NCBI RefSeq assembly: GCF_002067035.1
Contig: NZ_MVQB01000013.1
Coordinates: 186,001 to 250,000 of the forward strand
Reading direction: 5' to 3'
DNA from: Methanoregula sp. PtaB.Bin085
Lineage (GTDB): Archaea > Halobacteriota > Methanomicrobia > Methanomicrobiales > Methanospirillaceae
DNA length: 64,000 nt
A program made the translations under genes and the position numbers. Below the pieces are notes generated by a model. That model saw only the letters and a program-made list of their open reading frames with translations. It had not been told where the DNA came from and did not search any database. Below, piece after piece: positions 14,289 through 56,722 of the stretch. Each line of letters opens with the position of its first letter. Positions within the stretch are counted from its first letter, which is position 1.

Positions 14289-14423
14289 GGCCCGATTCCT
14301 CACCATCCGGTTGATTGCTGATGGGAGAAAAAGGAGAGTACTCTGCCTTCGGTCTGCCCGGAGCCAACTGTCACCGCAGGATTTAGCGAAACACTTTTTG
14401 GCGGGTACCGGCAACATCCCGTG

Positions 14424-15308
14424 ATGGCACCCCAACCGGATCCCGGCATGGTACTCCGCGACCTCACACGGGTGAGGCTGACAAACCTGGACAAGATCCT
14501 GTACCCGGCAGCCGGGATCACCAAAGCGGACGTGCTCACGTATTACGTCCGCGCGGCCCCCCGCCTCCTCCCGTTCCTGCACAACCGCCCGCTGACCATG
14601 CACCGTTTCCCGGACGGGGCCGGCGGCCCGGGATTCTTTGAGAAGGATGCGCCGGCCGGCACACCGGACTGGGTGGAGACCTTCACCCGCAGAGCGGAGA
14701 CTGCCGGGCGGGACGTCCGCTACGTGCTCTGCAACAACCTCGACACCCTGATCTGGCTCGGAAACCTCGCATCGCTCGAGATCCATACAGCCCTTGCTGC
14801 AGCCCCCGCGTACGAGACCCCCGACCTGCTGCTCTTTGATATCGACCCGGAGCCCCCGCTCACTTTTGACGATGTCGTTTCCGTTGCCCATATCGTCCAC
14901 GGGCAGCTGGAGAACCGCGGCCTTCGCCCGTACGTCAAAACCTCGGGAAAGAAGGGTGTGCATATCGTGGTTCCGCTGGTTCCCGGCCTGTCCTTCTCCC
15001 GGGTCAGGGATTTTGCGCACGGGATAGGCAAGGCGATCGCCCGTGACACCCCGCAGGTGGTCTCCGAGTTCCCGCACTCCCGTGAGCCGGGAACAATCTT
15101 TATCGACTACCTCCAGAATTCCCATGGCAAAACCATGGTGGCTCCGTGGAGCCTCCGGGCAACCCCCCTGGCGACCGTTTCCGTCCCGGTCCGGTGGGAC
15201 GAGCTGAAAAAAGGGGTATGTCCCGAAGTTTTTAATATAAAAACCGTGCTTTCAAGACATGAAGATCCCTGGAGCGATATCTTCCATGACCGGCAGAAAA
15301 TCACCTGA
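14424..15308 (+). CDS. ligD-Pol: LigD polymerase domain (NHEJ primase-polymerase)
   Basis: This 294-residue stand-alone protein is the polymerase module of bacterial LigD. In bacteria this archaeo-eukaryotic primase-type enzyme fills gaps with ribonucleotides at double-strand breaks. Seen in the sequence are the metal-binding Asp pair (Asp139 and Asp141 in LLFDIDPEP), the third Asp228 in GTIFIDYLQN, and the nucleotide-binding stretch VKTSGKKGVHIVVP (residues 171-184). The N-terminal NLDKILYPAAGITKAD is also typical. The gene begins an operon: its 3' end overlaps the Ku frame by about 50 bases, and Ku overlaps the ligase gene. The ATG at 14424 is preceded directly by GTG (14421), and either could be used. 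The C-terminus ends in the family-like DPWSDIFHDRQKIT. Confidence 0.92.
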   Translation: MAPQPDPGMVLRDLTRVRLTNLDKILYPAAGITKADVLTYYVRAAPRLLPFLHNRPLTMHRFPDGAGGPGFFEKDAPAGTPDWVETFTRRAETAGRDVRYVLCNNLDTLIWLGNLASLEIHTALAAAPAYETPDLLLFDIDPEPPLTFDDVVSVAHIVHGQLENRGLRPYVKTSGKKGVHIVVPLVPGLSFSRVRDFAHGIGKAIARDTPQVVSEFPHSREPGTIFIDYLQNSHGKTMVAPWSLRATPLATVSVPVRWDELKKGVCPEVFNIKTVLSRHEDPWSDIFHDRQKIT

Positions 15309-16194
15309 ATCCCCGCCGCCAGCAAAGCAGGCCTCGCACGGAAAGAGATCCCCGGTAACAAAACCCGCGTCTATGGTGAAGACGGAGCACCTGCCGGCCG
15401 GCGGGGAGGAGCACGGGGCACAACCCGGTCGCGCCTTCTGGAGCGGGAGCATCACCATCGGCCTTGTGAACGTCCCGGTCCGGCTGCACACGATGGTCCG
15501 CGATCGCTCGTTTGCGTTCCGGCTCCTCCACCGCGACGACGGCCAGCCCCTGAAGTACGACAGGGTCTGCTCCCGCGACGGGAAGGTCGTGCCGTGGTCG
15601 GAGACCGTGAAAGGCTACGAGATCCGGAAGGGCGAGTTTTTGGTCTTCGAACCTGATGAGCTGAAGGCGATCCTTCCCGAATCGGACCGGAAGATCCGGA
15701 TCGATAAATTCGTGTACTATCTCTCGCTCGATCCGGTGTACTTCGACAGCTCGTTCATCCTCGTCCCCGACCGGAGCGAGGAGGCGTACGGCCTGCTCCT
15801 TGCTGCCCTGCAGGACCTTGGCCGGGCCGCGGCCGGAACCATCACGCTCCGGACCAAGGAGTACCCGGCCATTGTGCACGTGTACGACGGCGCCCTTGTC
15901 CTCACCACCCTCCGCCATGCTGACGAGGTCATCCCGCCGCACGCGTTTTCGATCCTGCCGGAACTCCCGGTTCCCAAAGCTGCGGAGCTTGCGCTTGCAA
16001 AGAAGATCGTTACCGATCTCTCGGGAGATTTCTCCATCAACGACTACCCGGATCGCTACCGTGAAGCGGTGCTGGCGCTTGTGCACAAGAAACTTGCCGG
16101 CGAAAACATCGTATACGAGGAACCGCATCCCGGGCAGGCAAAGGAGCTGATGCAGGCCCTGCAGGAGACCATTGCAACCCTTGCGAAGAAATGA
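15259..16194 (+). CDS. ku: Prokaryotic Ku protein (NHEJ end binding)
   Basis: Ku forms a homodimeric ring on broken DNA ends and recruits LigD. The core begins at AFWSGSITIGLVNVPVRLHT, nearly the textbook Ku opening, and continues through VCSRDGKVVPWSETVKGYEI, FEPDELKAILPESDRKIRID and the barrel region YYLSLDPVYFDSSFILVPDR. The C-terminal part is short and helical (EPHPGQAKELMQALQETI). The frame from 15259 gives 311 residues with a basic extension (TGRKSPESPPPAKQASHGKR) before the core; starts at 15286 or 15373 are also possible. A TATA-like run TTTTTAATATAAAAA at 15229-15243, inside the polymerase gene, sits just before 15259 but also encodes the family residues FNIK. The stop codon overlaps the ligase start (ATGA). 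Confidence 0.95.
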   Translation: MKIPGAISSMTGRKSPESPPPAKQASHGKRSPVTKPASMVKTEHLPAGGEEHGAQPGRAFWSGSITIGLVNVPVRLHTMVRDRSFAFRLLHRDDGQPLKYDRVCSRDGKVVPWSETVKGYEIRKGEFLVFEPDELKAILPESDRKIRIDKFVYYLSLDPVYFDSSFILVPDRSEEAYGLLLAALQDLGRAAAGTITLRTKEYPAIVHVYDGALVLTTLRHADEVIPPHAFSILPELPVPKAAELALAKKIVTDLSGDFSINDYPDRYREAVLALVHKKLAGENIVYEEPHPGQAKELMQALQETIATLAKK

Positions 16195-17627
16195 CGGACT
16201 GTCCCCGTTTTCAGCCGATGCTTGCCGCAACTGCCCCGGCCCCGTTCAGCGGCGACGGCTGGCTCTTTGAGATCAAGTGGGACGGTGTACGGGCGATCGC
16301 GCATGTGGGGCAAAGATTCACCCTATGGAGCCGGAGCGATGCTGACCTGACGGAAAAGTTCCCGGAACTCGCGGAGCTCCAGACCCTCGCGCCCGGAACG
16401 GTGCTCGATGGAGAGATCGTGGTGATGAGCGGCGGCAAACCCGACATGCAGGCCCTCCTGACGCGACTGCAGGGGCGTGCGCCGGGCGCCGGTGCGCCGG
16501 CCGTTACCTACCTTGTGTTCGATATCCTCTGCCGCGGCGGGAAAGACCTGACCCGGCTGCCGCTTGCGGAACGACAGCGTATCCTCCGGGATGCCGTGCG
16601 GGAAGGCCCCCACATCGTGATCTCGGAGCCCGTCCCGGGGAACGGGGAGGAGTATTACCGCGCTGCGGTTGCCCGGGGGCTCGAGGGGATCATGGCGAAG
16701 CGGGCGGACAGCCCGTACGAACCGGGCGTGCGGAGCGGAGCATGGCTGAAGATCAAGGTGACAAAGACCTGCGACTGCATCATCGCGGGATATACGCCGG
16801 GAAGGGGCGGGCGCAGCCCGGCCTTTGGTGCGCTGATCCTCGGCCTGTACGACCGGGGAACGCTGGTTCCGGCCGGGAAGGTCGGGACCGGATTCTCTGA
16901 CCGGCTGCTCAGTGGGCTGATGCAGTTGTTCGCTCCTCTCGTTGTGCCGGAGCCGCATTTTCCCGGGTTCCATTCATCAACAGTCTGGCTGGATCCGGTC
17001 CTGGTCTGCGAGGTGGGATACCTTGCCGTGACAAAGGACCGGAGACTCCGGATGCCCCGCTTCGTCCGCATGCGGGACGACAAGCCGGCCGCAGCCTGCA
17101 CAACGGACCAGCTCGCGGGACCGGCAACGGCCCGTCCTGCAGGCCGGGTGCAGACGCACACGACACCGCAGAAGACGGTAAGAAACGGACTGAGGACCTA
17201 TCATGAGAAACGGAATTTTTCTGTCACACCTGAACCGGCGGGGGCGCCCGGCATAAGCGGCAGCCGGTTTGTCATCCAGGAGCACCACGCCCGCCACGTG
17301 CATTACGACCTGCGGCTGGAGCGCGACGGCGTGCTGAAGAGCTGGGCCGTGCCCAGGGGTATCCCGGAGATCCCGGGAGAGAAGCATCTTGCGGTCGCTG
17401 TCGAGGACCACCCGATCGAGTACGCATCATTCGAGGGCGAGATCCCGAAGGGAGAGTACGGGGCCGGCACGGTCACCATCTGGGATTCCGGGACGTACGA
17501 GACAAAGCACTGGGACGATACGAAGATCGAGGTCCGGCTCCGCGGGAAACGGCTGGACGGGATGTACGTGCTGGTGAAGTTCAGGCGTGCGGGAGACAAG
17601 GACTGGCTGCTGTTCCGGGGAGCGTGA
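16191..17627 (+). CDS. ligD-Lig: LigD ATP-dependent ligase fused to phosphoesterase (LIG-PE)
   Basis: This 478-residue enzyme should seal ends in NHEJ. Residues about 5-310 are an ATP-dependent DNA ligase: Lys29 in the nucleotidyl motif EIKWDGVRA, VLDGEIVVM (motif III region), GIMAKRADSPYEPGVRSGAW and WLKIKVT (motifs IV and V). Next comes a linker, then a 3'-phosphoesterase domain at about 345-478. Its conserved metal and catalytic residues are all visible: HHARHVHYDLRLE, SWAVPRGI, VEDHPIEYASFEGEIPKGEYGAG and TIWDSGTYE. In well-known bacterial LigD proteins the phosphoesterase lies N-terminal to the ligase; here it is C-terminal. Its ATG overlaps the Ku stop by one base (ATGA), so translation is probably coupled. 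Confidence 0.93.
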   Translation: MTDCPRFQPMLAATAPAPFSGDGWLFEIKWDGVRAIAHVGQRFTLWSRSDADLTEKFPELAELQTLAPGTVLDGEIVVMSGGKPDMQALLTRLQGRAPGAGAPAVTYLVFDILCRGGKDLTRLPLAERQRILRDAVREGPHIVISEPVPGNGEEYYRAAVARGLEGIMAKRADSPYEPGVRSGAWLKIKVTKTCDCIIAGYTPGRGGRSPAFGALILGLYDRGTLVPAGKVGTGFSDRLLSGLMQLFAPLVVPEPHFPGFHSSTVWLDPVLVCEVGYLAVTKDRRLRMPRFVRMRDDKPAAACTTDQLAGPATARPAGRVQTHTTPQKTVRNGLRTYHEKRNFSVTPEPAGAPGISGSRFVIQEHHARHVHYDLRLERDGVLKSWAVPRGIPEIPGEKHLAVAVEDHPIEYASFEGEIPKGEYGAGTVTIWDSGTYETKHWDDTKIEVRLRGKRLDGMYVLVKFRRAGDKDWLLFRGA

Positions 17628-18444: not shown

Positions 18445-19008
18445 TTGCTCATCCGGAACAAAACCCGTCCCCTCTACCCGCCGCCCGCCGCGGACTTTGA
18501 GACCATCGGCAGCATCGCGGAACTCGACGCAGTTGCCGGCGGATCGCGATGGCAGGGCTTCGAGCGGCTGGCTGCATACATCTTCGGGCAGCATGATTTC
18601 GAGGTCAGCGTCGGCACGGTGATCAACCGGAACGGCAAGCGGCGGCAGTATGATGTCATTGCCCGGCGGGACGGCCGTACCCTGCTCGCGGAGTGCAAAC
18701 AGTGGTCGGGCAGGCGGTACCGCATCTCCGCGCTGAGGCATGCCGTGGTGCAGCACCGGGAGCGGGCGCAGTTCTACGAGACGATCACGCGGGAGGCATC
18801 GATCCCGCTTATCGTCACCCTCATCGACGAGGATATCCGGATCATTGACAGCGTCCCGCTGGTGCCGGTGCACCGGCTTAACGCGTTCATCGGTGAGCTG
18901 GATCATTTTACGGAGGGTTTCCCATGTCCGGAATACCAGACAGCAGATACGGCTGTGACAAGTGTGGAGGATTCGTGGAATCAGGAAGAAGCGTACGAGG
19001 AACAGTAA
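18445..19008 (+). CDS. Mrr-like restriction endonuclease-fold protein
   Basis: This 187-residue protein has a PD-(D/E)XK nuclease core: a conserved N-terminal WQGFERLAAYIFGQHDFEV, the catalytic Asp in RRQYDVIARRDG and Glu-x-Lys in LLAECKQW. This is the Mrr-type layout, without a methyl-binding winged helix at the N-terminus. Proteins of this family cut modified or foreign DNA, or act in repair as resolvase-like enzymes; which applies here cannot be decided. The start is a TTG at 18445 preceded by AGGAG at good spacing; no nearby ATG would keep the core. No methyltransferase gene is in the neighbourhood. Confidence 0.72.
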   Translation: MLIRNKTRPLYPPPAADFETIGSIAELDAVAGGSRWQGFERLAAYIFGQHDFEVSVGTVINRNGKRRQYDVIARRDGRTLLAECKQWSGRRYRISALRHAVVQHRERAQFYETITREASIPLIVTLIDEDIRIIDSVPLVPVHRLNAFIGELDHFTEGFPCPEYQTADTAVTSVEDSWNQEEAYEEQ

Positions 19009-19492: not shown

Positions 19493-21328
19493 CTATGATG
19501 GCGGGACACGCATCATCGGATCAACGTTTGCCCCTTCCATCTCCCCCTGAGCCCATGCAAACCGTTCCCGTATCGACTGCGGGAGTTCCTTCTCATTGAT
19601 CGGGACGAATCCGTACGCGCCATAGAATTTTTCGAGGCCCCGAACCGAATGCATGTACAGGACGTCACTGCCGCACGCCTCGACAAGCCCCCATACCGCA
19701 GCGTGCGCAAACCCGTGGCCCCGGTGGCCGGGCGGGGTGAAGACCCCGTCGACCTCGTACCCGTCCGGATGCCTCCTGCAGCGGGCGAGCGAGACCATCT
19801 GCCCGTCATGGAATGCGGCGAAGATCCGGTCGGTCCGGGGATCCCCGGTCGTGGTGTGATAATCAACCCAGAGTGCATCCGCAAGCGGGAACTCGGAAGA
19901 GAGCAGCTCGCGCACGGTTGCTCCGGTGCTGTGCCGGATGATATTCCCGGGTGACTGTCGGGGGAGGGCAGAGGGCGGGGCGTCGTCCGATGTTCCCTCG
20001 ATACGGTACCGTCCTGCCGGTACATGGATCACAAACCAGGCCCCGCTGCCCGGGATCCCGATCTCCCGGAGCGTCATGCCGGTCACCCCGGCAATCTGCC
20101 GGCAGATGAACAGGCCGATGCCGGCCTGCCCGCCGGAATCGTACTCGAAGATCCGATCCTTCTTTTCTGCGGGTATTCCCTGGCCGTCGTCCCGGATGGA
20201 GAGGTCGAGCCCTTCCGGCGTCTCGCGGTATGTGACAACGATGTTTTTTACCGTCCTGCCATGACGCAGGGAATTTTCCACCAGATGGACGAGGACATCG
20301 GCAAAGAGCGGGTCCGCGTAGATCTCGAGACGTTCGGTCCAGATCCTGAGGGAGACCGTGCCGATCTTCTGCATCAGCCGGCCTGATTCGAACACCTGCC
20401 GGACACTCATCCAGACCGGGGGCGTTGTGCCGAGATCCTTGTACGATTCAGTGAGAAGGAGCTGGCGGGAAATATTCCACGCAAAGGTCCTGATGCGGTC
20501 AAGATACCCGTGCGTTCCGGTATCCGCGCAGCGGGCATCCGCTTCTTCCACTGTCTCGAGGATCCGGTCCACCGAGAAGTGGAGGTGGTCAGCCGAGATC
20601 CGCGAGAGCATGCTGAGCTTGTCGTTTGCGGTCCTGAGCGCCTGCTCGGCCCGGACCCGGCCGGTGATATCGGTGAACGTAAGGACTGCCCTGCCCCCCG
20701 GGAGGGGGGCAGCCGAGACAAGGACGATGAATGTCCGGTTGTCCGGCAGCCGGAACACGGTATCCGCTGCATAGACCGCTCCTTCCCGCGCGAGCCGGGA
20801 AAAGAAGTCCGGTTCGTCATCCCCGCCCCAGATCAGGGACAGGGGGGAGCCGGTAAGATCGCCTGCCTTCCGGTGGAGGAGATCGGCTGCCTTCCAGTTG
20901 ACCGCCTCGATCGTCCGGCCGGCGCCGGTATCGCTGATGAGAATGGTGCCGCTCTCCGAATGTTCAAAAAGCCCCTGGTAGAGCGCTTCCTGTTCGCGGA
21001 GCCGATAGGTGAGCCAGCCCACCAGCCACCCGATGATGACGAGAACAATGATCCGGACAATCGCCTCGTAAATCTTCTCCGGCATGCTCCCGGCAAGGAT
21101 GAACACCATCAGGAAGTAAATCGCGCCGAGAGCAGCAGCCGCGATTGCTCCCCGCCGCGGGAACCGGTATGCGGTAATGACGACCGGGATATACAGGAGG
21201 TGGGGGATGGCGACCGTTATGCCGGCGAGGAGCCCGGCCAGGTTCAGCAGGAGCGCCGCTGCTGCAGAAACCCCGATGAGAGTCTCCCAGAACCGGGGAC
21301 GGTTTGCGATGGCTTCCAGCCGGATCAC
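19493..21328 (-). CDS. PAS histidine kinase fused to a GNAT acetyltransferase
   Basis: This 611-residue protein has four membrane spans (about residues 15-110), a PAS domain (about 115-225, GLFEHSESGTILISDTGAGR), a dimerisation segment (LSMLSRISADHLHFSVDRIL), and an ATPase domain with N-box HLVENSLRHG, G1 IRDDGQGIP and G2 GQAGIGLFICR. Residues 480-611 are a GNAT acetyltransferase with acetyl-CoA loop TPPGHRGHGFAHAAV and FYGAYGFVPI. In related kinases the phosphoacceptor segment reads TRHDIRNQL; here it is ADHLHFSV, so the expected His-Asp is missing or swapped. The GTG at 21328 is chosen for its GGAGGGAGG ribosome-binding sequence; an ATG at 21385 is possible. Confidence 0.85.
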   Translation of the reverse strand: MIRLEAIANRPRFWETLIGVSAAAALLLNLAGLLAGITVAIPHLLYIPVVITAYRFPRRGAIAAAALGAIYFLMVFILAGSMPEKIYEAIVRIIVLVIIGWLVGWLTYRLREQEALYQGLFEHSESGTILISDTGAGRTIEAVNWKAADLLHRKAGDLTGSPLSLIWGGDDEPDFFSRLAREGAVYAADTVFRLPDNRTFIVLVSAAPLPGGRAVLTFTDITGRVRAEQALRTANDKLSMLSRISADHLHFSVDRILETVEEADARCADTGTHGYLDRIRTFAWNISRQLLLTESYKDLGTTPPVWMSVRQVFESGRLMQKIGTVSLRIWTERLEIYADPLFADVLVHLVENSLRHGRTVKNIVVTYRETPEGLDLSIRDDGQGIPAEKKDRIFEYDSGGQAGIGLFICRQIAGVTGMTLREIGIPGSGAWFVIHVPAGRYRIEGTSDDAPPSALPRQSPGNIIRHSTGATVRELLSSEFPLADALWVDYHTTTGDPRTDRIFAAFHDGQMVSLARCRRHPDGYEVDGVFTPPGHRGHGFAHAAVWGLVEACGSDVLYMHSVRGLEKFYGAYGFVPINEKELPQSIRERFAWAQGEMEGANVDPMMRVPPS

Positions 21329-21793
21329 CGGTGCCTCCCTCCGCTCCCCGCGACATCGGTCCCATGGCAGGATGGTGATAGCCATATGACCGGTAAACCC
21401 CGGGAACCGTCCGGCGTTTCCTGAACGCCCGGCATACCGGCCGGCACGAGCGGTACCAATCCCGTGCGGCAGATGTCCCGTGTCATGGCAGTCTCCGGTG
21501 CTCGTACTCTCCCGCTCATCGGATACATGCTTTGCGAAACGCGATCCGGCGGGTAATCTCCTGTCAGCTCCTGCAGATATGATCAGGCCATGACATAATG
21601 GTACTAGCCCATACCGGAGGAAAAAACGGCGACGGTGAAAAAAATTCAGCCCCTCGTGACCGCGATCGACCAGCAATCCCGCGTGATTGTCCGTGACGTG
21701 TCGGGAGAAATACTTGTTCGGAGATCGGCCTGCCGACCATAAACGCTTTGGTGCTCCGGGCCAAATCATGGTAAAACAGTTCATGGTTTTTTT

Positions 21794-22903
21794 ATGAACG
21801 CAACTCCTCACGGGTGCGACAGCCCGCGCCCCCTCACGTTACCACAGCTTGGCTGGACCTCCGAACACGCAGATGCTTTTGCGAAATATTCCGGGCCCTA
21901 CACGGCCGGCCGCGTGGCCTGCCGGCAGAAGACCGTCTGGGACGTCCTGACCGAATCCGGGATGGTCACGACCGGCATCACCGGCGCCCTCCGGAAGCTG
22001 GGCCGCTTCCCCGCGGTCGGCGACTTTGTCGTGCTGCTCAGCCAGCCCGGTACCGGGGTCTCCGCGATCGTGGATATCCTTCCGCAGCGGACGCGGTTTT
22101 CCCGCGGGGCTGCGGGAAAGGAATGCACAGACCAGGTCATTGCGGCAAACATCGATACCGTCTTCATCGTGACGGCTGCCGGCCCGGACCTCAACGCCCG
22201 GCGCATCGAGCGCTACCTTGCGCTTGTCCATGCTTCCGGTGCCCGGCCGTTGATCGTGATCAACAAGGCCGACCTTGCGGAGGACCCGGGCGGGCTTGCA
22301 TCCGCGATCCTCCCGTCGTCCGGCCAGGTCCCTATCGTTACCCTGAGCGCCCTGAGCGGCGATGGCATGGCACGGCTGGACCCGTACCTTGCGCCCGGCA
22401 CAACCATCGCCCTTGTCGGCTCTTCCGGCGTCGGGAAGTCGACGCTGATCAACCGCCTGCTGGGCGGTACCGTGCAGGACATGGCCGAAACCCGGGAGTA
22501 CGACGACCGGGGCCGGCACACGACAACAGTCCGGCAGCTTTTTGTCCTCAGGGGCGGGGCGCTCATGATCGACAATCCCGGGATCCGCGAAGTGGGTATC
22601 GGGACTGCATCGGAGGGGATCGCGGATACCTTCCCCGATATCCTTGAACTTGCGGGAAACTGCCGGTTCTCTGACTGCCGGCACGACCAGGAGCCCGGCT
22701 GCGCGGTGACGGCGGCGGTGCGCAGCGGGAAGCTTCCGGCATTGCGCCTTGAGAACTACCGCAGGCTCATGAAGGAACTCGCGTTCGGGCAGGAGAAGGC
22801 GGAGATCGGCCTTGTGCGTGCCGAGCGGAAGCGGTGGAAACAGTACAACGGCCATGAGGCAGAGAAGATCCGGAGGGCAAAGGAAGGCAAAGGGATGTTC
22901 TGA
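21794..22903 (+). CDS. rsgA: Ribosome biogenesis GTPase RsgA
   Basis: RsgA is a circularly permuted GTPase that helps 30S subunit maturation in bacteria. The permuted motif order is seen: G4 VINKADL first, then G1 GSSGVGKSTLINRLLG, G2 DRGRHTTTVRQL and G3 DNPGIREVG. An N-terminal OB-like domain contains VGDFVVLLSQPGTGVSAIVD. The C-terminal zinc-binding knuckle is CRFSDCRHDQEPGCAV, with Cys, Cys, His and Cys ligands. The total of 369 residues is normal for the family. RsgA is mainly bacterial but also present in some methanogens, so ancient transfer is plausible. It starts at the ATG at 21794, with an AT-rich upstream stretch. Confidence 0.9.
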   Translation: MNATPHGCDSPRPLTLPQLGWTSEHADAFAKYSGPYTAGRVACRQKTVWDVLTESGMVTTGITGALRKLGRFPAVGDFVVLLSQPGTGVSAIVDILPQRTRFSRGAAGKECTDQVIAANIDTVFIVTAAGPDLNARRIERYLALVHASGARPLIVINKADLAEDPGGLASAILPSSGQVPIVTLSALSGDGMARLDPYLAPGTTIALVGSSGVGKSTLINRLLGGTVQDMAETREYDDRGRHTTTVRQLFVLRGGALMIDNPGIREVGIGTASEGIADTFPDILELAGNCRFSDCRHDQEPGCAVTAAVRSGKLPALRLENYRRLMKELAFGQEKAEIGLVRAERKRWKQYNGHEAEKIRRAKEGKGMF

Positions 22904-52830: not shown

Positions 52831-53976
52831 ATGAAACTCATTCATATCGCCGACACCCACCTCGGCCTCGCCGCCTTCAGCCGCCTCGATCCCGAGACCG
52901 GCATGAACCTCCGCGAAAAACAGATCTACGATAACTTCCTCCGCGGAATAAACGACATCATTAATCAAAAACCCGACGCGCTCGTCCACGCCGGCGATCT
53001 TTTCGATACCGTCAAGCCCAAGACCAAAGCCTACACCACCGTTCTCGAAGCACTGGAGCGGTTGCGGGCCGCAGACATCCCGCTCATCATCATCGCCGGC
53101 AACCACAGCATGACCAAGACCCGGTACACAACAAGCCCGTACGAGGTGCTCACGTACCACCCGGGAAAAATCACGGCCGCGTATAAGTTCCGGTACGAAA
53201 AAGCCGAGATCGGCGACACGGTCTTCCATCTCCTCCCCAACATGCTCCGGCCGGAAGATTACCGGACGGAGTTCGACAAAATCGAACTGAGTAAATCCCG
53301 CCACAACGTGCTCGTGACTCACGGCCTCGCAACCCAGATTAAGGACAAGCGCCTTGCTACCGTTGCGGAGCACGAGCTGGACGGCACGATCCTGGGAGAG
53401 AACTTCGATTACATCGCGCTCGGCCACTACCACCGGCAGTGCCAGATCACCGATAACGCGTGGTACTCGGGCTCGCAGGAGTTCCTGACATACGGCGAGA
53501 TAAAAGACGAGAAAGGCGGCCTTATCGTGGACACCGCGAAGCGCACGGTGACACCGATGGTCCTGCCGCACACCCCGATGGCGGATTGCGGGACGATCAA
53601 GTGCGCCGGGATGCACCCGGGCGACATCACGGAGGAGATCATCAGCAGGGTTTCCGCAAAGCACCTGCCCCTCGGGGCAATGGCACAGATCACGCTGGAC
53701 CAGCTCTGCCGCGAGGACGGCAAGGGGATCGACATGAAGCAGCTTGCGGGGATCCGCGAGGGGCTGCTCGACCTCAAGATCCGGGTGAGGGCTGCGGAGG
53801 AGGACACGGTGCAGCCGCTCCAGCAGGACATCCGGATGATCGATTACCTGCAGGAGTTCTCGTCATTCATCGATCGGCAGGGCCAGCTCACCGCGAAGCA
53901 GAAGGCGTTCATCGCTGCCCGCGGCAGGGAGATCCTGGTGCAGGTCATGGAGGAGCACCGGGGGGAGGTTGAATGA
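52831..53976 (+). CDS. mre11: DNA double-strand break nuclease Mre11
   Basis: This 381-residue protein has the Mre11 phosphoesterase motifs in order: IADTHLG (Asp8, His10), HAGDLFD, AGNHSMTKTRYT, VTHG and LGHYHR. Mre11 with Rad50 forms the end-processing complex for homologous recombination. After the nuclease core, the cap region (about 270-340) and an amphipathic helix (LQEFSSFIDRQGQLTAKQKA) for Rad50 binding follow. It is slightly shorter than archaeal Mre11 proteins of about 400 residues. The ATG at 52831 is the family start (MKLIHIADTHLG). Rad50 follows after 310 bases rather than overlapping, owing to the inverted-repeat element between them. Confidence 0.93.
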   Translation: MKLIHIADTHLGLAAFSRLDPETGMNLREKQIYDNFLRGINDIINQKPDALVHAGDLFDTVKPKTKAYTTVLEALERLRAADIPLIIIAGNHSMTKTRYTTSPYEVLTYHPGKITAAYKFRYEKAEIGDTVFHLLPNMLRPEDYRTEFDKIELSKSRHNVLVTHGLATQIKDKRLATVAEHELDGTILGENFDYIALGHYHRQCQITDNAWYSGSQEFLTYGEIKDEKGGLIVDTAKRTVTPMVLPHTPMADCGTIKCAGMHPGDITEEIISRVSAKHLPLGAMAQITLDQLCREDGKGIDMKQLAGIREGLLDLKIRVRAAEEDTVQPLQQDIRMIDYLQEFSSFIDRQGQLTAKQKAFIAARGREILVQVMEEHRGEVE

Positions 53977-54286: not shown

Positions 54287-56722
54287 ATGATCCTCGACCG
54301 CCTCGTGCTCCACAACTTCAAGCGCTTCAAAAACGCCGAGATCGATTTCAAAGACGGCATCACCGGAATTCTCGGCAACAACGGCTCGGGGAAGTCAAGC
54401 CTGGTCTCGGCCATCCTCTTCGCGCTGTACGGCGTGCAGGCAACGGGAATCGCGGCGGACTACATCGTCTCGTCGTTTGCCGGCCCGAGGGACCGGTGCG
54501 AGGTGCGGCTGGACTTCCGGATCGGCGGGGACTCGTACACGGTGGTTCGCACGTTCAAAAAAGGCAAGACCGTGTCGCACGATGCCACGTTCCACAACGG
54601 CGGCAAACTGGTGGCAACGGGGGTGAGCCCGGTGGAGGATGCGGTGAAGCGGACGCTCGGGATGGGGCCGGTGGACTTCCGGAACACCATCTACGCGGCC
54701 CAGAAGGACCTCTTAACGCTGCTCGAGAACACGCCGGGGAAGCGCCGGGAGTGGTTCCAGAAGGCGCTCGGGATCGATTACCTGAAAAACGGCAGCGATA
54801 CGATCCTGAAAGAGGAGATCGATCAGAAAGCCGGCGAGCTCCAGCGGGTGACCGGCCAGCTCGACGCCCTTACGGCACGGCTGGGGGAGGCAGATCTGCC
54901 CGCGCTTGAAGCGTCAGTCACTTTCCATAGGGCAGCCATAGCGGAGCAGGAGCAGGCCCGGGCGGCGAAGCAGAAGGAGCGGGACGGGCTCGCGGCACGG
55001 CAGAAGGAGCTTGCGGAGCAGAAGCTTCTGTACACTGCCCTGCTCCAGAAACAGGCGGCGGTTGCAAAGGAACGGGACGCGGACCGGGAACAGGCAGGGA
55101 GACTCGAGGCGCAGCTCGCACTCATCGCACAGGAGCAGGCCGAGTACGAGCGGCTGAAGCCTGTGGTGGCCGGGCACGATGATCTCCGGCAGCGGCTGGA
55201 GGCGCTGCGGCAGAAGAAGGAGAAGTTCCAGCAGCTGAACGCGGAGCTCGGGTTTGCGATGAAACAGATCGCCGACCTGAAGGTGCGGGAAGAGGCACAG
55301 AAACAGAAGCTCGCCTTGCTCGATGCCGGCACGAAGAAACGGGCTGAGCTGGTGACCGCCATCCGCGCCGGCCTAGGCGCCGGTGAAATCGCGGACAACC
55401 GGCTCGAGACTGCTGTCAGTTTCCGGCTGGCGGAGATCAGCAAACAGGCCGGCACGCTCGCTGCCCGGCTCGCCCACTCCACGGAAGAGCGGGAGAAGAT
55501 TGCAGCCGACCGGGAAACCATCCGGAGAGCCGGAGCCGACGGCATCTGCCCGCTCTGCCGGCAGAAACTCGGGGAGCACTTCGGCAGCATCGACGCGGAG
55601 TTCAGCGCGAAGATCCACGATCTCGAGGAAAAAGCGGCCGCCGACCTTGCACGGCAGGAGAAACTCGCACAGGAGAAGGCCGGCATCGATGCACTGAAAC
55701 CCTCCCTCGATACCCTGCGCAGCCTTGACGCGGACCTGAAACAGAAGCCCGTGTACGACCAGGATCTTGCAAACCTTGCCGGACAGAGGATACGCAAGGA
55801 AGAGGACGAACACCGGATCCGGAACGCGCTCACCGTCCTGATGTTCAATCCGGATGAATTCGCTGCCTGCGAGAAGGAGAACGCGGACCTGCAGAAGGTC
55901 CAGCTCCGGTTCATCGAACTCGGCAGGAAGATCGGGCAGGGCATCATGGCGCAGCAGCACCTGGACGCGATCCGGGAGAAGATTGACCGCCGGACGGAAG
56001 ACCTGGAGACAATCTCAGAAGAGATTAAAGCCGCAGCCTTTGATCCTGAAGCAGCAGCAAGGGCAGAGCGTGCTGTCGCGGAGGCCGATGCGGCCCTTCG
56101 CGACATTGGCGTACGGATTGCAGAATCTGCAAAGGAGCTCCGTTTCGCGGAAGAGAAGATCGCGGAGTACCGGAAAGCGGAGCAGCAGGCTGCCGGGCTG
56201 AAGGAACGGATTTCGGCTCTGGAAGACGAACTCGACCTGCTGGCACGGACCCGGAAACTGATCGCCGAGTATGTGGTGTACCTTATGCAGGTGGTGCGCA
56301 GCCGGCTCGAGGGAGAGACCAGCCGGATCCTTGGTGAAATAACCGGCGGGCGGTACGAGCAGGTGCTGCTGGACGATAACTTCAACCTGCTCGTCCGCGA
56401 CATCGACAACGACTACCCGGTGGACCGGTTCAGCGGCGGCGAGCAGGACGACATTGCAGTCGCCCTCCGGATCGCCCTCTCGCGCTACCTTGCCGAGCTC
56501 CACGATGTCCACGAGTCCACGGTGCTCATCTTCGACGAGATCTTCGGCAGCCAGGACGAGGAGCGGAGGGCGAACCTGCTCACAGCGCTCCGCACGCAGG
56601 AGTCCCGGTTCCCGCAGATCCTCCTCATCTCCCACATTGCCGATATCCAGGGCGAGTTCGCGAGCACGCTGGTCGTGGAGAGCGGCGCAGGCGAGGGGAG
56701 CCGGGTCCGGGAAGCGGAGTGA
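54287..56722 (+). CDS. rad50: DNA repair ATPase Rad50
   Basis: This 811-residue SMC-like protein has the Rad50 layout: Walker A LGNNGSGKSSL near residues 29-39, two coiled-coil arms around a zinc hook CPLCRQKLGEH near residue 421, the ABC signature FSGGEQDDIAVALRIALSRY near 713, and Walker B STVLIFDEIFGSQDEER near 745. The coiled-coil regions are rich in Glu, Lys, Gln and Ala. Rad50 tethers DNA ends and works with Mre11. It is somewhat shorter than many archaeal Rad50 proteins (about 880). The start follows GGAGG nine bases upstream, inside the 3' end of the intergenic element. Confidence 0.93.
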   Translation: MILDRLVLHNFKRFKNAEIDFKDGITGILGNNGSGKSSLVSAILFALYGVQATGIAADYIVSSFAGPRDRCEVRLDFRIGGDSYTVVRTFKKGKTVSHDATFHNGGKLVATGVSPVEDAVKRTLGMGPVDFRNTIYAAQKDLLTLLENTPGKRREWFQKALGIDYLKNGSDTILKEEIDQKAGELQRVTGQLDALTARLGEADLPALEASVTFHRAAIAEQEQARAAKQKERDGLAARQKELAEQKLLYTALLQKQAAVAKERDADREQAGRLEAQLALIAQEQAEYERLKPVVAGHDDLRQRLEALRQKKEKFQQLNAELGFAMKQIADLKVREEAQKQKLALLDAGTKKRAELVTAIRAGLGAGEIADNRLETAVSFRLAEISKQAGTLAARLAHSTEEREKIAADRETIRRAGADGICPLCRQKLGEHFGSIDAEFSAKIHDLEEKAAADLARQEKLAQEKAGIDALKPSLDTLRSLDADLKQKPVYDQDLANLAGQRIRKEEDEHRIRNALTVLMFNPDEFAACEKENADLQKVQLRFIELGRKIGQGIMAQQHLDAIREKIDRRTEDLETISEEIKAAAFDPEAAARAERAVAEADAALRDIGVRIAESAKELRFAEEKIAEYRKAEQQAAGLKERISALEDELDLLARTRKLIAEYVVYLMQVVRSRLEGETSRILGEITGGRYEQVLLDDNFNLLVRDIDNDYPVDRFSGGEQDDIAVALRIALSRYLAELHDVHESTVLIFDEIFGSQDEERRANLLTALRTQESRFPQILLISHIADIQGEFASTLVVESGAGEGSRVREAE

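Follow-up and report, generated by a model that had tools for sequence, protein, structure and literature searches.

Three overlapping genes lie on the forward strand of the window, the 64,000-nucleotide stretch of Methanoregula sp. PtaB.Bin085 DNA analysed here. As an earlier note on this DNA had proposed, they encode the polymerase (POL) of non-homologous end joining (NHEJ), Ku and a ligase-phosphoesterase fusion (LIG-PE), and the overlaps between them are confirmed. The features are as follows.

14421..15308, + strand: POL, a separate gene for an NHEJ primase-polymerase (LigD polymerase domain), 295 aa; PF21686, TIGR02778
15286..16194, + strand: Ku, end-binding protein, 302 aa from the inferred start; TIGR02772 and a start site conserved in relatives
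15286..15429, + strand: N-terminal extension of Ku, Lys/Pro-rich; stop-free Ku frame over nine genomes
16191..17627, + strand: LIG-PE, ATP-dependent NHEJ ligase with a C-terminal 3'-phosphoesterase fused to it, 478 aa; TIGR02779, TIGR02777, alignment of eight members
16215..17084, + strand: LIG part, nucleotidyltransferase and OB domains, residues 9-298; PF01068 (9-189), PF04679 (209-298)
17190..17618, + strand: PE part, 3'-phosphoesterase, residues 334-476; TIGR02777 (334-476), PF13298 (363-463)

The profile search that the note had suggested matched all three proteins to Ku or LigD domain families above the curated cut-offs. POL is recognized by PF21686 (E=8e-81) and scores 264.7 bits against TIGR02778 (cut-off 214.7), Ku scores 231.6 bits against TIGR02772 (cut-off 150), and the two parts of the fusion score 256.7 bits against TIGR02779 (LIG, cut-off 227.75) and 185.6 bits against TIGR02777 (PE, cut-off 144). 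The multidomain LigD profile TIGR02776 gives 263.4 and 211.2 bits, below its cut-off of 373.2. The nearest solved structures are chains of NHEJ polymerase, Ku, LigD ligase and phosphoesterase, with 5DMU, the NHEJ Pol of M. paludicola, closest to POL. The catalytic residues, all of which the note had described as present, are found in POL (D140, D142, H181 and D229), in LIG (the adenylation lysine K29 within KWDG, and motifs III, IV and V) and in PE (H365, H371, D373, R375, H407 and Y411, invariant in eight aligned relatives). The spacing of the PE residues equals that of H42, H48, D50, R52, H84 and Y88 of P. aeruginosa. An AlphaFold2 model of LIG-PE built from an eight-row alignment reached a mean pLDDT of only 49, and we therefore make no structural argument.

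POL can start at GTG 14421 or at ATG 14424. For Ku, the longest open frame begins with an ATG at 15259, but seven of the nine Ku-bearing genomes examined carry a TTG after GGAGG or GGAGGG, placed so that the POL frame ends 19-25 bases later, and at the site of this conserved TTG start the window has an ATG (15286). Two of the nine genomes contain no ATG, GTG or TTG from the POL stop to the Ku core. Because of the conserved site and of these two genomes without a later start codon, we place the Ku start at 15286, which gives a POL/Ku overlap of 23 bases. Over the same interval in the nine genomes, the Ku frame has no stops in 508 codons, and the other two frames have 17 and 20. Starts at 15259 or 15373 were dropped on the strength of these comparisons. 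The stop-free frame and the conserved start site together indicate that the POL/Ku overlap is real and that the N-terminal extension is translated. The overlap of the Ku and LIG-PE genes is the sequence ATGA.

The genus shares the Lys/Pro-rich extension of Ku with a single sister genus from its family (locus L187); it shrinks to about 10-17 residues in Methanolinea and genus g9, and it is variable in the other archaeal phylum that carries these genes. We infer that this basic N-terminal tail takes over the role of the basic tail that bacterial Ku has at its C-terminus. At its C-terminal end the protein carries the conserved sequence ELMQALQETIATLAKK, and a motif L[MLIV]xAL near the C-terminus, predicted from sequence to contact LigD proteins, occurs in 27 of 27 archaeal Ku proteins whose gene follows POL.

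By analogy with its homologues, the operon probably serves Ku-directed end joining. In the homologues studied biochemically, Ku binds the ends, POL aligns them and fills gaps, PE trims and LIG seals (PMC4797286, PMC9638933). If the proteins described here behave alike, two Ku subunits would form a ring on each DNA end, and the conserved C-terminal end of Ku, together with its core, would recruit the other two proteins. POL would then bridge the ends and fill gaps, mainly with ribonucleotides, PE would make the end ligatable by removing 3'-phosphates or excess 3' ribonucleotides, and LIG, in the same chain as PE, would seal it. The overlapping genes may provide for balanced co-expression, and the fusion may couple end cleaning to sealing, with POL recruited in trans via Ku.

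The note had described a complete NHEJ operon in an archaeon, and this description is borne out by the genome. The host is a member of the Methanomicrobiales (2.9 Mb, 98% complete, 63 contigs). The contig that holds the operon is 250 kb long or longer, and the operon has a GC3 of 0.76-0.79, the same as that of the adjoining genes. Its closest named relative is Methanoregula sp. UBA154, whose LIG-PE is 72% identical. Base composition, contig size and the presence of the same cassette in seven relatives within the genus led us to reject contamination. The host further encodes, apart from the operon, an ATP-dependent ligase of 556 aa that is presumably the replicative one, and an additional PE-like protein (C21). 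Mre11-like (52831-53976) and Rad50-like (54287-56722) genes occur in the window as the note had said; any genome of this kind should be capable of homologous recombination, so that their presence alongside NHEJ is unremarkable.

Archaeal NHEJ has been described as rare, with biochemistry from a single species, which encodes LIG, POL and PE individually (PMC4797286, PMC5124664). A survey in 2020 found Ku together with LIG in ten of 243 archaea (PMC7719229), and Ku has been reported in Methanolinea mesophila (PMC11936186). The note likewise called NHEJ rare in archaea. Ku is indeed patchy, but it is present in 8/39 genomes of the genus, 31/199 of the order and 63/393 of the phylum, counts that come from samples spread over species rather than from a census. 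All seven genus relatives with Ku have it in the same POL, Ku, LIG-PE cassette, and this order also occurs in other Methanomicrobiales and in two further families of the phylum (f30 and f36). A LIG-PE profile found single-open-frame matches in 6 of 393 genomes of the window's own phylum and full-length collinear matches in 17 of 398 genomes of the Candidatus Bathycorpusculum phylum, with none in 297 genomes of one bacterial phylum. Each of the 16 single-protein LIG-PE loci fetched from the Bathycorpusculum phylum has POL, Ku and LIG-PE in that order. The genes that flank the operon in the window are absent around the cassette in all genus relatives examined, three of which share flanks among themselves; the cassette is thus kept while its flanks differ, indicating that it changes position. 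Because the gene flanking the operon upstream occurs in only 3/39 genus genomes, synteny and empty-site comparisons are of limited reach. One Ku locus appears to be decaying (L122:7797-8669, genome G014), with the Ku frame broken by a TAG and LIG also in pieces.

The note had called the operon bacterial-type, which raises the question of a recent import of a bacterial LigD/Ku operon, or of a bin contaminated by bacteria. The domain families were first described in bacteria, the cassette is patchy within the genus, and the NHEJ genes of Nitrososphaerales have been inferred to be acquisitions from bacteria (PMC7554672). However, the LIG domains of the cassette form one clade (support 100/99 with 18 rows and 100/100 with 34 rows) that is archaeal only and stands apart from all bacterial rows, and the nearest relatives of LIG-PE are all archaeal, with 48-72% identity over the full length. 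Compared with the Ku encoded by cassettes in other genera and families and in a second archaeal phylum, the window's Ku shows 52-62% identity; against Ku from bacterial plasmids the identity does not exceed 38%. The arrangement of the fusion also argues against the bacterial label: PE follows LIG in one protein, with POL and Ku as separate genes upstream, whereas PE precedes LIG, within one chain or as the preceding gene, in 67 of 67 bacterial loci that hold both. As the bacterial sample consisted of the top matches from a single genome scan, of plasmids and of one phylum, other bacteria may have LIG-PE. A Tsukamurella plasmid match of LIG-PE-like length turned out to be POL-PE-LIG. Given in addition a base composition that equals that of the neighbouring genes and the seven genus relatives that carry the cassette in different contexts, bacterial import or contamination is largely refuted, and we regard it as very improbable. 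The label is not supported for this lineage, and the phylogeny that the note had proposed against Methanocella and bacterial LigD separated the window's LIG from both.

Alternatively, the genes could be intact and yet serve a role other than general break repair: they might repair gaps or ribonucleotides while cells are dormant, for example, or join the DNA of mobile elements. The patchy presence and shifting genomic position of the cassette fit such a role, as does the survival of most relatives without it. Nevertheless, all four parts stay together with intact active sites across two phyla, and a function of this kind seems to us improbable. We regard the operon as a complete NHEJ module of archaeal type, a conclusion that we hold with considerable confidence.

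The trees, which are unrooted, also bear on how the cassette spread. Within the LIG clade, sequences from both archaeal phyla are mixed together, a pattern suggestive of transfer among archaea, and the POL proteins of POL-first archaeal operons form one clade (100/96). In the Ku and PE trees, however, the cassette is not one clade, as operons of genus g4 with POL, Ku and PE fall among its members. These g4 operons, from the same family, have the three genes in the same order as the window and are closely related to them in sequence, but their ligases lie elsewhere in the genome and come from other clades, mostly on the bacterial side; the ligase has thus been exchanged at least once. Such combinations of POL, Ku and PE with a distant NHEJ ligase (L107 and L109-L112 with L232-L236 and L239) represent an exchange of modules. 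PE or LIG may thus have been swapped. Repeated fusion or splitting is also possible, to judge from two Methanolinea loci: L119 has the fusion, whereas in its sister L121 LIG and PE are clean genes lying next to each other (L121:9220-9420). A split by an indel was rejected as the simple reading of L121, where LIG ends in a clean stop and a new ATG, with a purine-rich stretch before it, comes next; fission in L121 and a second fusion are both possible.

Methanocella, which the note named, is the studied archaeal case (PMC4797286). Our genome G215 is Methanocella paludicola or a near-identical strain, since its POL and PE match 5DMU and 5DMP over the aligned residues, cloning tag aside. Its NHEJ system resembles that of the window in having Ku, POL, LIG and PE, all with homologous domains and conserved active sites. 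However, it encodes PE, LIG and POL by individual genes, arranged in this order, its Ku is about 1.5 Mb away rather than inside the operon, and its LIG belongs to a bacterial-side clade and not to the archaeal one, so that Methanocella is a precedent for archaeal NHEJ without sharing the gene layout or ligase lineage of the window. In a 2016 summary, too, archaeal NHEJ is said to be encoded by an operon of distinct genes (PMC5124664). Bacterial LigD is known in the orders PE-LIG-POL, POL-PE-LIG and LIG-POL (PMC8656161), as in Pseudomonas, Mycobacterium and Bacillus, respectively. These proteins share the three domains and the Ku partner with the window, but the window encodes POL as a protein of its own and has PE on the C-terminal side of LIG. 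Pairs of Ku and LIG genes in f9 (same phylum) are similar in placing Ku beside an NHEJ ligase of the archaeal side, but no POL or PE adjoins Ku and the LIG clade is a separate one. In the incomplete literature that we searched, we found neither the LIG-PE fusion nor the POL, Ku, LIG-PE cassette described.

Taken together, we lean towards a distinct, previously undescribed class of archaeal NHEJ, in which a cassette of POL, Ku and LIG with PE fused after it has been exchanged as a unit between archaeal phyla, independently of bacterial LigD and of the Methanocella system, and in which a basic N-terminal tail, acquired by Ku in Methanoregula and one sister genus, replaces the basic C-terminal tail found in bacterial Ku. 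If this is correct, the picture of NHEJ spread would change from "bacteria to archaea" to one that also includes spread among archaea, and a second, compact archaeal type, present in two phyla, would offer an independent system in which to study the coupling of ligase and end trimming. The cassette may also offer a compact end-joining tool for methanogen genetics.

Several other arrangements were seen among archaea. Loci of f10 in the same phylum (L163-L167, for example L164:6791-8794) encode Ku-LIG fusions of about 663-671 aa that lack an adjoining POL or PE, and these form their own clade in both the Ku and the LIG trees. Another domain order occurs in f7 (L180:3824-5170, L193 and L194), where Ku and LIG genes are followed by a PE-POL fusion. 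Some genomes have Ku and no LigD-type ligase above the cut-off (L115, L116 and L117; f2, g25), and others have multiple Ku copies, three in G428 and two in G489 (L169-L173). Within the window, a gene two positions downstream of the operon (18445-19008) encodes a protein with an Mrr-like restriction endonuclease domain (PF04471, barely above cut-off) and is not conserved there in relatives, and positions 19493-21811 encode a histidine kinase (PAS, HATPase) fused to a GNAT acetyltransferase domain.
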